Origin: Bacteroidetes bacterium GWF2_38_335
Lineage (GTDB): Bacteria; Bacteroidota; Bacteroidia; Bacteroidales; GWF2-38-335
Direction of reading: 5' to 3'
Assembly: GCA_001769535.1 (NCBI GenBank)
Contig: MEOH01000026.1
Span: 124,001-188,000, forward strand
DNA: 64,000 nt
Made by a program: the position numbers and the translations under genes. Position 1 is the first letter of the stretch. The number at the start of each line of letters is the position of its first letter. This document shows positions 14,226 to 36,326 of this stretch, piece after piece. The notes beneath the pieces were generated by a model, which saw nothing but the letters and a program-made list of their open reading frames with translations, ran no database searches and had not been told where the DNA came from.

Positions 14226-15044
14226 TCAATGTCCTCCGCTATTTCCTCCGCCAAGCACAGTGCCTTTTATTCTGAGAGAAATAACAGGGTTTTTGGGATC
14301 ATTGGTATTTACTGTAATGGATTTATTTTGGTTTCCATTTTTTCCTGCTGTGTTAAATGAAACAGAAATCTTACTTGATTCTCCTGCTTTTATTGGTTTA
14401 CCAGCTTGACTGGCAGCAGTGCAGCCTCAGGACCCCTTAACACGGCGAATCTCAAGATCATTTCGTCCAAGATTCTTAAATGTGAAATCATAGGTTATTT
14501 TAGCGCCTTGTTCAACTGATCCAAAGTCATAAACTAATGTGTCAAATTTTACAATTGGGGCTTCTTCTAACTGCTTTTTTGTGTATTTGGTAAAGTCTTC
14601 GTCCAGACTGCAGTTGAAATTCAGTGCGTTTTGTTTATAAGTTGTTGTGTCTCCATTAACTACTACAAACACCGAAAAGGTAGTAGAACCCCATTGCTGC
14701 ATTCCTTCTTTGTTTTTGTGCAACTTTGGTGTGTAGGTAGTTACTATAATTCCTTCTTTGCCTGGTTTAAGGGTAGCCGGAGCATTTACCAACTTTAAAT
14801 AAGCAGGAAGGTCTTTGTAAGTCAGTTTGATTTTTGTTTTTGAAACATTCTTTATTTTAACAGTATCTATTCTAACCGAGTTGATGTCTATATTGCCCAT
14901 CGATACGGTATTTTTTAACACTTTAACAGCACCGTTTCCCCATTGAAAAGGGTAGTCAGGTTGGGTATTTCCCGGTTTATCCTGCGATATTGCTGCATAG
15001 GACAGGACCAGAGAAATAAACAGAATTGAAAATAGTTTATTCAT
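14226..15044 (-). CDS. DUF1573 domain protein interrupted by an in-frame TGA at the conserved Cys (candidate selenoprotein or nonsense mutant)
   Basis: The start is the ATG at 15044 (signal peptide MNKLF to AAISQ). The frame runs to a TGA at 14427-14429 (codon 206) and then continues open in the same frame for 66 more codons to a TGA at 14226-14228. The continuation is unmistakably the same domain. Before the stop comes DFGSVEQGAKITYDFTF...NDLEIRRVKGS, and directly after it GCTAASQAGKPIKAGESSKI, then NTNDPKNPVISLRIKGTV. DUF1573 proteins carry the signature SCGCT here, so the TGA replaces its first Cys. A 5-bp stem, UGCCA/UGGUA, with loop GUCAAGC lies 16 nt behind the TGA. That is compatible with a relaxed bacterial SECIS, but weak. 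Otherwise it is a single-base nonsense change or error. Residues ~40-140 form an extra N-terminal domain, probably beta-sandwich. Secreted or periplasmic; role unknown. Confidence 0.75.
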
Positions 15045-15064
15045 AATATGATTTATATAGCATT

Positions 15065-15095
15065 CAAAATTAATTAATAATATTTCAAAGGTCAA
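15065..15095 (-). promoter_or_regulatory. Promoter of the DUF1573 gene
   Basis: On the minus strand TTG (15095-15093) is followed 20 nt later by TAATTTTG (15072-15065), matching the Bacteroidota pattern TTTG/TTG-N19-20-TAnnTTTG. It predicts transcription from about 15058, with a leader of roughly 13 nt. It suggests the gene can be transcribed apart from the lipoprotein genes upstream. Confidence 0.5.
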
Positions 15096-15209
15096 TTTTT
15101 TGCCAGATTTTATCATATTATTAACAAAAGGTTGGTTATAGAATGCAACCCTGTAAAAAAAACCACCAACACAAATCAATGCATTGGTGGTAAAATAAAA
15201 AAAAATATT

Positions 15210-16283
15210 TTAAAAAAACTTTTGTGTTTCGAAAGCTGAATTGCACAGGTGTATTTCAATCACTGTTCCTTTAAACAGTTTTGAAATGCCTTCTTTTAGC
15301 TTTTTGGCGTAATCGGCGATATCCTGCGATTCAAGATCCAATCCCTTTCTCATTACAAACTTAACCTGCAGATTTTTATCTTCCCTTTTTACCTGTACCG
15401 AAGTGTTTTTCTGCTCGGCAAAATAATTTGTCTCAAGCCATTTGGCCAGCTTTTCTGCATCTTCTTTGGTTACAGTCTCGGTATAGCAAAGCTCACCATC
15501 GATTACTTCAATCTCAGTTCCGAAATTGTACTTTTCAATATTGCTTTCATCCCAGGGTATTTCTTTCCTTGATTCAAACATGGAATTGCAGAAATTAATC
15601 ACAACCGGACTATTATTCAGAAGTTTGCTGATTTCAACCTGTGAAAAAACTGCATTGGCAACAAGAGATTCATCTTCCACATCCACATCATCCCTGAAAA
15701 CAAAATTGACTATGTATGAGTTGCCTGACTTGTCAAGCTGAACAGAGCTGTTCTTTTGAAATACAAAGTAACTTGGTTCGAGATATTCAGAAACGGTTTG
15801 GGCTTCTTCCTTACTCACATTTTTATAGAATAAGTCTCCATTGGCAGTGGCAATTACCTCACCGAATTCTATTGCAGCAGCCAGCTTATCGTTCCATTCT
15901 AACTTTTTGTTCATTTCGAAAGAACGGTCACAGAGCCACACTTCAATTTCAGCACCATTCAATTCCTTGCTGAGTGATACCTGCACAATCCTGAAAGCAT
16001 TAATTACAGCTACAGATTCAAGATCAGCACCTTCAACAGTTACAAATTTCACAATGAATACATCACCATCTTTGTCAATCTGAACAGAAGGCTTTTCATT
16101 GGCTGCAGGGAAAAAGTTTTCTTTAAGCCAGTCGGCTATTTTTTGGGCATCTTGTTCTTCAACATTCTCTGAATAATATACTTCCCCGTTTTCAACATCA
16201 ATCATTGTTCCATAGTCGTTACAGGAAATTATCAGAAGCGCTGAAAATAAAATCGCCAGCGTAACAATTAAGTATTTTTTCAT
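15210..16283 (-). CDS. Lipoprotein with three tandem copies of an unrecognised ~110-residue domain
   Basis: A 357-residue protein with a lipoprotein signal (MKKYL, hydrophobic core, lipobox LIISC, Cys near 21). The mature part is three homologous units at about 25-140, 140-250 and 250-357. Each starts with G-x-x-I-x-x-x-x-G-E/D-L/V-x-Y (for example GELCYTETVTKEDAEKLAKW), continues with a WLE-x-x-YF helix end, a VQ-x-x-K/D-x-D strand, and closes with I-x-x-x-x-C-x-x-x-F-E (for example IEIHLCNSAFETQ). The Cys near the end of each unit is conserved. The neighbour upstream (16286-16672) is the same domain as a single copy and ends 2 bp from this start. I do not recognise the family; no enzymatic motif is seen. 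Probably periplasm-facing and outer-membrane anchored. Confidence 0.75.
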   Translation of the reverse strand: MKKYLIVTLAILFSALLIISCNDYGTMIDVENGEVYYSENVEEQDAQKIADWLKENFFPAANEKPSVQIDKDGDVFIVKFVTVEGADLESVAVINAFRIVQVSLSKELNGAEIEVWLCDRSFEMNKKLEWNDKLAAAIEFGEVIATANGDLFYKNVSKEEAQTVSEYLEPSYFVFQKNSSVQLDKSGNSYIVNFVFRDDVDVEDESLVANAVFSQVEISKLLNNSPVVINFCNSMFESRKEIPWDESNIEKYNFGTEIEVIDGELCYTETVTKEDAEKLAKWLETNYFAEQKNTSVQVKREDKNLQVKFVMRKGLDLESQDIADYAKKLKEGISKLFKGTVIEIHLCNSAFETQKFF

Positions 16284-16285
16284 TT

Positions 16286-16672
16286 TTATTTAACTACTTT
16301 TTGAGTTTCAAGTTTGTCGTCGCAAAGGTGAATTTCAACTTTTGAATCGGGAAATACGGTTTTCACGCCTTCTAAAAGCATATTGGCATAGGCAACAACA
16401 TTCTCATCATCCAGATTTACATCATCGCGGACAACAAATTTTGCCTGAAAAACATCGCCTTCTTTTTCCAACTGAACTGATGCATCCTTGTTCTGTACAA
16501 AATAGTTTTCCTCGAGCCATTTTCCAAGTTTGTTGGCATCGTCTTCAGTTACATTTGAAGTGTAGAACAATTCGCCGTCTTTAAGTTCAATCTTTGTTCC
16601 GTGATTTGAACATGACGAAATAAAAATAACTGCCATCATCAGCAGCATTAATGGTAATAATCTCTTTTTCAT
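16286..16672 (-). CDS. Small lipoprotein, single-domain paralogue of the downstream triple-domain protein
   Basis: A 128-residue protein with a lipobox FISSC (Cys near 21). The remaining ~105 residues match each unit of the downstream protein: GTKIELKDGELFYTSNVTED, KWLEENYF, VQLEKEGDVFQAKFVVRDD and VEIHLCDDKLETQ. Only 2 bp separate its stop from the next start, so the pair is translated from one mRNA. It lies 10 bp behind WbqC. The arrangement looks like gene duplication followed by internal triplication of one copy. Function unknown. Confidence 0.75.
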   Translation of the reverse strand: MKKRLLPLMLLMMAVIFISSCSNHGTKIELKDGELFYTSNVTEDDANKLGKWLEENYFVQNKDASVQLEKEGDVFQAKFVVRDDVNLDDENVVAYANMLLEGVKTVFPDSKVEIHLCDDKLETQKVVK

Positions 16673-33207: not shown

Positions 33208-33639
33208 TTACTTTTGTTTCTTGTATTTTTTAACCAAATTTTTGTACTCCTTTGTCAGAATCATTTCTTTGAACCAATCGTTACTTTCTGCTTCCCTGGG
33301 GTTTGAGGTATACTGTATGAATTCTTCATACCAAATAAGCGCATTTTTTATATCTCCTGCAATGGCATATGTTTCAGCCAAATGATAAACATGTGCACTA
33401 TGATCGATATGATTAGGGTAATTTGAGATAAGGGCATTTAATTCCTTTTGTTTATATTCCACATATTTATTAAGATAAATCTTATAGTTTTTCTCATCTT
33501 TAACAGAAAGCGTCATAAGTTCCAAATAAACATCTGCATTTTCGGGATCGGTTTTAATCGCTTTCATATATGTTTCAAAAGCTTTTACTGAGTCCTTAAA
33601 TAAATCACGATATAAATCTCCCACATAAACAATCTGCAT
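33208..33639 (-). CDS. TPR-containing C-terminal part of the caspase-TPR gene, separated by an in-frame TGA
   Basis: A 143-codon open frame beginning at a possible ATG (33639). It is in the same frame as the upstream caspase gene, whose TGA is at 33673-33675, and the eleven codons between them are also open (DSIATNINPDV). The sequence continues the TPR helix pattern without a break (VGDLYRDLFKDSVKAFETYMKAI; AHVYHLAETYAIAGDIKNALIWYEEF). The simplest reading is one 710-codon gene split by a single nonsense codon. A separately translated small TPR protein, or a base-call error, are alternatives. It has no signal of its own. Confidence 0.6.
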   Translation of the reverse strand: MQIVYVGDLYRDLFKDSVKAFETYMKAIKTDPENADVYLELMTLSVKDEKNYKIYLNKYVEYKQKELNALISNYPNHIDHSAHVYHLAETYAIAGDIKNALIWYEEFIQYTSNPREAESNDWFKEMILTKEYKNLVKKYKKQK

Positions 33640-33672
33640 GACATCGGGATTAATGTTAGTGGCAATTGAATC

Positions 33673-35340
33673 TCATTTTTCAAGATACTCCAGTGCCAGG
33701 ACTGTGTCTTTGGTTCTGTAATAATGATCTATAAGTAATGAATGAATAGGACCATAATCCGGGTTTATTTTCAATCCTTTATTAATAAGAGCAACTGCTT
33801 CATCACTTTTTTTCAATTTAAATAGTGTTCTGGCAGCACTTTTATAGGCCCACATCCAGTTAGGTGATAATTCAACAGCTTTCAGAAAACTTTCTGCAGC
33901 AATATCAAAATTACCCATATTAAAATTTGCAATACCTTTAATAAAATAAGCCGGACTGAAATCAGGATCTGTGTTAAGCAAGGCTTCAATATTTTGAAAT
34001 CCCTCTTTAAAATTATTTGAATCAAAGGAATTAAATGATTTAACAAAAAGATATCTGCATTTGATACTATTATAGGATATTTCAGTTGAATCAGTCATTG
34101 AGTAAGCTATTCCGAGCTCCTTGTATGCCTTTGGAATGGAAAATTCATTTGGTGATTCTTTTCCTTCTAATAAGCAGTTGATTGTGATTTGGGTTGTATT
34201 TTGAAGTGCTGCAATTAACGATCTTTTAGCTGGTGAGTGTACCAACGAAGCATTTTTATTTTCTAAAAGCTTTTTATATAATTCAACTGCATTTCCATAC
34301 ACAGGGTGACTTTCTGTCAGATAATTATTCGTTATACAAAACCTGAAATCCATATACATTTTGTAAGTAGAACTGTCCAGTTGCTTTTTCAGATCATCCT
34401 CAAATCCCCTGAAAGCCACATCCCCGTTGGTCAATATTTCATTTGATTGCATTTTCTTAAGATTTGCAAAAGTAATACTGTCGATTACGGAAAGGATAAC
34501 TGCCGGATTCCCAATAACTGAAGGATTTTGTGCGAAGTTTGTTTCTGCTGGTATTTTATCTGTCAGGTAAATATTGATTTCTCCAACTGTAATTTTTTTA
34601 TCATTATTACGATCAGCAAACCCCATCATTCCTTTAACAAGATAATATGTAAAAACGCCGGCACCACCATTCCATTTATCACTTTCATAGGAAAGCTCTC
34701 CTGGCTGTGAAGACAATATTTTTACTGTATTTTCGACTGATTGCTGCAACGCTGTTGTAGTATTGGTTATTCCTTCTAATCCGCCCGCCAGTTTTCCCGA
34801 TTTACAGGCATCAGTGATAATGATCACCTTTGCTTTATTTTTCTGAACAAGAGTTGCAGAATATTGCTGCAGATAAATTACAGGCAAAGCTCCGCCGGCC
34901 ATGTAAGATGATTTTGGGCAATCATTTGCAAGCAGGAAGCCATTTTGAAACATGGTTTTGTTTTCAAGATCTCCATGGCCAGCGAAATAGAATATCACTG
35001 TTTCGCCTTCTTTGGTTTGGTCAATAAGCCATTCAAGAGCCGCAATCATATTTGGAAAAGTGGCTTTTTCATTTAGCAGGAGGGTGGCGTTGTCGGGAGA
35101 GACTCTTCCACCTTCGGGGGATGTCATGAAATTATAAAATGCAAGGGCATCGGTGTGAGCATAGTTCAGCGACTCAATATTTTGATAGGTTGATACACCT
35201 ATTACCAAAAGCTTGAGATCAGAATTAACCTGATTGACCATATTATTGCTTTTATTTCCCACATTGTTCCTTTCCTGGGAAACCGCACATGTTACCGTAA
35301 ACAGAATGATGCTAAATAAAAAGTACTTTTTCATTTTCAT
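33673..35340 (-). CDS. Secreted caspase-family (C14) peptidase with TPR repeats, probably truncated by an in-frame TGA
   Basis: 555 residues to the TGA. Two starts are possible, 35340 (MKMKKYFLF) or 35334; a signal peptide ends near residue 21. The caspase-like p20 domain spans ~42-280: LLVIGVSTYQ, catalytic His122 in FYFAGHGD and catalytic Cys179 in IIITDACKSGKL. Residues ~310-555 are TPR helices (FSPAYFIKGIANFNMGNFDIAAESFLKAVELSP is one repeat region). The frame stops at TGA 33673-33675 in the middle of a TPR helix and stays open behind it to 33208. Such metacaspase/caspase-TPR proteins are frequent in Bacteroidota; their proteolytic targets are generally unknown. It follows the DUF5655 gene with a 9-bp gap. 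Confidence 0.82.
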   Translation of the reverse strand: MKMKKYFLFSIILFTVTCAVSQERNNVGNKSNNMVNQVNSDLKLLVIGVSTYQNIESLNYAHTDALAFYNFMTSPEGGRVSPDNATLLLNEKATFPNMIAALEWLIDQTKEGETVIFYFAGHGDLENKTMFQNGFLLANDCPKSSYMAGGALPVIYLQQYSATLVQKNKAKVIIITDACKSGKLAGGLEGITNTTTALQQSVENTVKILSSQPGELSYESDKWNGGAGVFTYYLVKGMMGFADRNNDKKITVGEINIYLTDKIPAETNFAQNPSVIGNPAVILSVIDSITFANLKKMQSNEILTNGDVAFRGFEDDLKKQLDSSTYKMYMDFRFCITNNYLTESHPVYGNAVELYKKLLENKNASLVHSPAKRSLIAALQNTTQITINCLLEGKESPNEFSIPKAYKELGIAYSMTDSTEISYNSIKCRYLFVKSFNSFDSNNFKEGFQNIEALLNTDPDFSPAYFIKGIANFNMGNFDIAAESFLKAVELSPNWMWAYKSAARTLFKLKKSDEAVALINKGLKINPDYGPIHSLLIDHYYRTKDTVLALEYLEK

Positions 35341-35349
35341 TTTTCAGGT

Positions 35350-36210: not shown

Positions 36211-36326
36211 AGTCTTTGAATTTAATTTTTCCTTACTCTTTTATGGATTTTCGGGAAACTCCGTTTTCATCAAACAATATTACTGAATTATTACGAATAA
36301 AAATTAATAATCTGTTTTCAAACCAA

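Follow-up and report, generated by a model that had tools for sequence, protein, structure and literature searches.

A probable selenocysteine codon in a DUF1573 gene of Bacteroidales, and a group of related Bacteroidota genes that share a covarying stem-loop

Background

The locus studied here raises the question of whether a TGA codon that lies within a DUF1573 gene of a Bacteroidales genome ends a broken gene, or is translated as selenocysteine (Sec) in an intact one. The gene was found in a stretch of 64,000 nucleotides (hereafter the window) from Bacteroidetes bacterium GWF2_38_335 (GCA_001769535.1, contig MEOH01000026.1, positions 124,001 to 188,000). An earlier note, made from the letters of the window alone, had described the gene as a candidate selenoprotein gene with a promoter upstream and a short hairpin behind the TGA, and had proposed that selA, selB, selC and selD be sought in the same genome, and that relatives be compared for alternation between cysteine and selenocysteine. 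The answer matters for annotation, which could turn such a gene into a truncated DUF1573 protein or a pseudogene.

Two reviews (PMC9312934, PMC13188914) already count DUF1573 (Pfam PF07610), with the motif UGC, among the selenoprotein families, both citing Zhang and Gladyshev (2007), with reference to an Olavius algarvensis symbiont; the novelty of the present case is therefore lower than the earlier note implied. NCBIfam includes a model named OS_HP2 family (seleno)protein (NF041425), which presumably describes the same family as the entry in the reviews. In the open-access full text that our search returned, DUF1573 appeared otherwise only in a paper on iron in Bacteroidetes, which mentions one gene in a passage that makes no reference to selenium, and the words Bacteroidota and Bacteroid- are absent from the main text of PMC13188914. 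What is added here is a Bacteroidota clade of probable DUF1573 selenoproteins, and the stem that goes with it.

Results and discussion

The reading frame across the TGA codon

The window gene lies on the minus strand (14226-15044) and encodes 272 residues with Sec at position 206 when the TGA is read through. It starts with an ATG at 15044 and keeps one frame throughout, with the TGA at 14429-14427 as codon 206 of 272, which is followed by 66 sense codons and an ordinary TGA stop at 14228-14226. Its translation around the TGA reads ..RRVKGS-TGA-GCTAASQ.., and in an alignment with homologues the TGA falls on the first of the two Cys in the SCGCT signature, so that the protein would carry U206 in the form SUGCT. 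The Ig-like DUF1573 domain (PF07610; residues 165-262, 14259-14552), delimited by the Pfam profile match and a structural model, runs across the TGA with a score of 105.2 bits against a gathering cut-off of 26.1. Thus, an in-frame UGA occupies a conserved Cys site with homology on either side of it, and the earlier note had rightly located both the TGA at this Cys and the 66 codons that lead to a normal stop in the same frame.

Recurrence of the TGA codon in related genes

In a search of 99 related genomes, the matches listed include four DUF1573 genes, from three genomes, with TGA at exactly this codon: the window gene and another gene of that genome (on contig C7), one in a genome of the same genus (G001) and one in G053, the last two genomes being Bacteroidales MAGs. 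Six other listed matches from this search hold TAA or TAG, five of them at the 3' end and one at the 5' end of the match, and in none of the six does it fall on the TGA codon. When 395 sampled genomes of the phylum were searched strictly (E 1e-30), matches came from four of them and included no further TGA form. A contig scan of named genomes with a single protein as query found no relative; with an alignment as query it returned 38 related loci, those of G001 and G053 among them. Two more Bacteroidota TGA genes (L065 and L067) were picked out by a script from the scan loci, and the TGA form was also seen in L078, L095 and L089, which come from MAGs titled Desulfobacterales, Desulfobacteraceae and Deltaproteobacteria, respectively. 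Furthermore, a DNA pattern for the TGA site gave eight matches in seven of 393 genomes of the order, all of them DUF1573 genes with TGA at this codon; G562 and G654 were new, and two others were the L065 and L067 genes again. The reversed control pattern matched in one genome. In total, eight Bacteroidota TGA genes were found in seven genomes, two in the window genome and one in each of the six others.

Before the pattern search, 52 distinct sites of the form [SGA]xGC[TS] had been collected from 102 sequences, of which 25 hold TGC, 18 TGT and 9 TGA at x, and none TAA or TAG; as the count took only Cys or a stop at x, leaving other residues aside, and the loci were gathered partly with Sec-form queries, the share of TGA is not its natural frequency. 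Among homologues with neither Cys nor TGA, that of G052 has Ser, and no site of this type was found by pattern in G023 and in G039:C281. The Cys/Sec alternation that the earlier note had proposed looking for is thus present, together with a conserved covarying stem downstream. Moreover, coding constraint among the eight Bacteroidota genes does not change at the TGA: pN/pS is 0.40 over the 45 codons that precede it and 0.41 over the 55 that follow.

Two of these loci deserve separate mention. The second Sec-type DUF1573 gene of the window genome (G000:C7:114027-114890, plus strand; L051:4028-4891) is 43% identical to the window gene and has a matching stem of its own. In G562, a short Cys-type DUF1573 gene with the signature SCGCI (L134:2258-2716, minus strand) lies directly upstream of the Sec-type gene (1279-2187), forming a Cys/Sec tandem.

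A covarying stem-loop downstream of the TGA

A SECIS-like hairpin, delimited by comparison of the TGA genes, is located at 14400-14414 on the minus strand, where GCCAG (14410-14414) can pair with CUGGU (14400-14404) around the loop UCAAG (14405-14409); in the window gene one extra U-A pair (14415 with 14399) lies beneath the stem. The bases are those that the earlier note had described, and its account of the spacing was loosely worded: the stem begins 11-12 nt past the TGA, and the loop, taken as GUCAAGC, follows after 16 nt. When columns are numbered from the T of the TGA as 1, columns 16-20 pair with 26-30, and in the eight Bacteroidota TGA genes 40 of 40 cells of this 5-bp stem, which starts 12 nt after the TGA, are paired. 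Two of the stem pairs are changed on both sides (C-G/U-A), a third alternates between G-C and G-U, and the remaining two are uninformative because they are invariant. As many cells paired, and as high a covariation score, were reached by 3 of 500 shuffles; the number of double-change pairs was matched by 35 of 500, for which reason the covariation signal is regarded as moderate, and the number of pair types by all 500. Sliding the partners by 1-3 columns left at most 37.5% of the cells paired.

The full stem is present in all eight Bacteroidota TGA genes versus one of 43 Cys homologues (Fisher p 1.4e-8), the one being L032; another, L024, has four of the five pairs. G562 and G654 were found via the DNA pattern, which fixes part of the 5' arm, and in the six TGA genes found otherwise than by this pattern the full stem is present in six of six versus one of 43 Cys homologues (p 5e-7). 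Under a synonymous-codon null that keeps the amino acids and codon usage of each gene, all five pairs are expected with a probability of 0.065-0.115 per gene. The product is 3e-9 for the eight genes and 3.9e-7 for the six without G562 and G654, on the assumption of independent genes; the genes are related, with synonymous sites far diverged (mean pS 0.72 and 0.63). Amino acids and codon choice, then, do not predict the stem. Folding energy was no better than chance (z = -0.30, -0.01 and -0.45), so that support for a conserved stem-loop is taken from covariation and from the codon test instead. In the eight genes, minimum-energy folds of 42 nt have energies of -6.2 to -10.2 kcal/mol, at or below -7.5 in seven of them, and in three of the eight the fold is not the covarying stem.

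The bSECIS consensus of the bSECISearch model, as given in PMC13188914, has a loop of 3-9 nt, a stem of 4-16 bp, a G in the first two loop positions, a spacing of 16-37 nt and a minimum free energy of at most -7.5 kcal/mol. The Bacteroidota hairpin resembles this consensus in its short stem and small loop and in the distance of the loop from the UGA (16-17 nt). It differs in that the 5-bp stem leaves no G in the first two loop positions, and in that several members have weak energies; the rule on G at the start of the loop (PMC13188914) is satisfied only if the structure is drawn as a 4-bp stem with a 7-nt loop, the closing G being counted as loop and the spacing as 16. The Bacteroidota stem is absent from the three deltaproteobacterial TGA genes (3, 3 and 1 of the 5 pairs), two of which have a different stem of 7 bp at nearly the same place.

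Selenocysteine machinery in the genomes

The window genome (G000; 5.27 Mb in 29 contigs) encodes the components that the earlier note had proposed seeking, and all four were found on contig C22 within about 10 kb: a tRNA-Sec with TCA anticodon, selA (512.7 bits, cut-off 267.9), selB (330.2 bits, cut-off 242.25) and selD (374.2 bits, cut-off 125). Between selB and selD lie ORFs that we take to encode a class V aminotransferase-like and a YedF-like protein. As to the other genomes, selA scored over its cut-off in six of the seven Bacteroidota TGA genomes versus 13 of 96 relatives for which no TGA form was listed (Fisher p 1.2e-4), although the two groups were sampled unalike, four of the seven TGA genomes having come from other searches; the 13 of 96 derive from 15 of 99 genomes with selA, less G000 and G053, and two of the 96 have no DUF1573 match at all. 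In a control set, the genomes of Cys-form loci, selA was found in one of five.

The searches for selB and tRNA-Sec covered the TGA genomes other than G562 and G654. UGA homologues occur in other Sec-using genomes. In one of the seven Bacteroidota genomes, G001, the TGA gene and its stem were found with no selA and no selB over the cut-off, and the best two matches to the tRNA-Sec model there are tRNA-Ser. This genome is a MAG of about 190 contigs, 95% complete; since the sel genes are clustered in G000, a single assembly gap could hide them in G001. In G493, the genome of L067, selA and selB are present and tRNA-Sec was not found, the best model match being a tRNA-Leu. Among the three deltaproteobacterial MAGs, selA was found in two and a tRNA-Sec with TCA anticodon in all three, and selB scored over its cut-off in one, with only fragments in the other two.

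Relationship to OS_HP2 and the origin of the Bacteroidota genes

The window gene is like the known DUF1573/OS_HP2 selenoproteins in having the same domain, Sec at the same Cys and the UGC motif. It is unlike them in its occurrence in Bacteroidota, its resident N-terminal Ig-like domain, its different stem and its score of 87.6 bits for NF041425, below the cut-off of 100. Also below this cut-off are the second gene of the window genome (89.5), G001 (92.5) and G562 (78.0), while four of the eight Bacteroidota genes exceed it (G053, 104.8; L065, 127.6; L067, 123.0; G654, 119.6), as do the three deltaproteobacterial genes (113.2-129.8), in which a stem likewise lies shortly behind the TGA. A Cys paralogue in the window genome (G000:C12) scores 76.0; it represents the Cys DUF1573 proteins of Bacteroidales and aligns over both domains with 36-39% identity, depending on the alignment, and it differs from the window gene in having SCGCT with a Cys codon and none of the five stem pairs.

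A tree of 54 domains was poorly resolved. With the hairpin-encoding columns included, 10 of the 11 TGA rows group together (83/93), two deltaproteobacterial genes among them; without these columns, a single group (93/85) unites the eight Bacteroidota rows, apart from the three deltaproteobacterial rows. On the reduced alignment, the AU test does not reject a single TGA clade (p 0.079 for all eleven rows, 0.318 for ten). An independent change from Cys to Sec in Bacteroidales is thus possible. We offer tentatively, as a scenario with rather less than even odds, that a two-domain DUF1573 protein already resident in Bacteroidales would have changed from Cys to Sec without any part of the deltaproteobacterial OS_HP2 lineage, acquired a hairpin of its own and been duplicated, giving an exported UGC redox factor beside Cys paralogues in the same genome; if this were true, an Ig-like fold would have come to carry a selenol active site more than once. 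In the same tree, the deltaproteobacterial candidate L089 (L089:2719-4092, plus strand) is placed away from L078/L095 as well as from the Bacteroidota genes, a hint of yet another origin.

Predicted export and fold

The first 20 or so residues (14985-15044) form a probable signal peptide, judged by eye from a hydrophobic stretch and from a helix at residues 2-18 of the model, where model confidence is low; the protein is thus probably exported. Residues 44-106 (14727-14915) form an N-terminal Ig-like stretch resembling ASH, with a match to PF15780 of 24.4 bits, below the cut-off of 27. The AlphaFold2 model, built with 34 aligned proteins, has a mean pLDDT of 91.2, and places U206 (modelled as Cys) and C208 at a turn between strands 199-204 and 208-212. 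Foldseek matched it to Ig domains of ASH/HYDIN type, with TM-scores to multi-domain chains near 0.3. One match (TM 0.57/0.68) is 2qsv, an uncharacterised protein from Porphyromonas gingivalis, which informs on fold only and not on function; a sequence search of solved structures gave no match under E 0.08. The window protein consists of two Ig-like domains, and no enzyme fold was seen in it.

Proposed reading and its alternatives

From the open frame, the recurrence of the TGA, the covarying stem, the equal coding constraint and the Sec machinery, all of them features of the sequences, we infer with high confidence that the TGA at codon 206 is a selenocysteine codon, and that a gene seemingly broken by a stop is very probably intact; the earlier reading as a candidate selenoprotein is thereby strengthened. 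In the proposed mechanism, the UGA at codon 206 would be read by tRNA-Sec brought by SelB, recoding being directed by the short stem-loop that starts 12 nt past the UGA, and a second UGA, at codon 273, would terminate the protein. The product would be an Ig-like (ASH/HYDIN-like) protein of two domains, with U206-G-C208 in its DUF1573 domain, and U206 and C208 would most likely form a reversible selenenylsulfide. The protein would most likely act outside the cytoplasm as a thiol/selenol redox factor, either a reductase or an isomerase of disulfides or oxidised thiols.

The redox step is the less secure part of this proposal. Because the protein combines a probable signal peptide and an Ig-like fold with a UGC motif, we favour an exported redox protein, with somewhat better than even confidence as regards the redox step. 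Adjacent Cys/Sec residues can chelate metals, and the protein might be a real selenoprotein in which U206 and C208 bind a metal or metalloid, or play a structural part, rather than act as a redox catalyst. Such a role would suit two Ig-like domains, a kind used in binding and scaffolding, with no enzyme fold in sight; we nevertheless think it less likely, as for most prokaryotic selenoprotein families a part in redox reactions is presumed (PMC9312934). In favour of the redox factor, by analogy, the CXC motif has been likened to CXXC in protein disulfide isomerase (PMC4316792, which references Woycechowsky and Raines 2003). Several lineages use Sec at the first Cys of CGC, which suggests that this residue is the reactive site in the widespread DUF1573 family and provides a way to test directly what its proteins do.

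Far less probable is that the TGA arose by nonsense mutation or a base-call error in a former Cys gene, with the 3' part untranslated. The family mostly has TGC or TGT at this site in our collection, one base away from TGA, and G001 has a TGA gene with no Sec genes detected. Another gene of the window, for a caspase-domain and TPR protein (33211-35343, minus strand), is also split by an in-frame TGA (33673-33675) into 556 and 154 codons, with no sign of Sec noticed, so that changes or errors of this kind may be present in the assembly. However, the same TGA stands in eight genes of seven Bacteroidota genomes, a recurrence for which neither a nonsense change nor a base-call error can account in general, with neither TAA nor TAG at any of the 52 sites; constraint past the TGA equals that before it, the stem covaries and Sec genes are present. 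Reassignment of TGA to sense, or its reading by a near-cognate tRNA in place of selenocysteine, would equally leave the frame open across the codon, and is the least probable reading of all, since the window gene itself ends in TGA, as do, among the window's 30 stop-to-stop ORFs with a length of 250 codons or more, seven (two of which are the interrupted genes themselves), and since the TGA falls exactly on a conserved Cys in a genome with a tRNA-Sec gene of anticodon TCA.

Surroundings of the gene

The earlier note had taken a promoter match at 15065-15095 as a sign of expression, a conclusion that was not supported, such sites being no commoner than expected: the 9/12 match that our scan found at 15106-15077 is one of six between 14000 and 15400, where shuffled sequence gives 4.2 (sd 1.7). 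The sigma-70 consensus is a poor guide in Bacteroidota. Between the upstream gene and the window gene lies a terminator-like hairpin with a T run (15162-15191, minus strand), weak in that one was found where 0.8 was expected in shuffles; together with a convergent downstream gene, it suggests a single-gene transcript. No shared neighbours were seen by eye around the eight TGA genes, two of whose loci span only 3 kb, and the context therefore gives no hint of function.

Two further features of the window were observed. A match to the DUF805b RNA (Rfam RF02914) is located at 36230-36264 on the minus strand, with 38.8 bits against a cut-off of 35.6. At 15210-16672, on the same strand, lie two adjoining genes for predicted lipoproteins of 357 and 128 aa, which, as judged by eye, seem to hold three copies and one copy, respectively, of one unit of about 100 residues.
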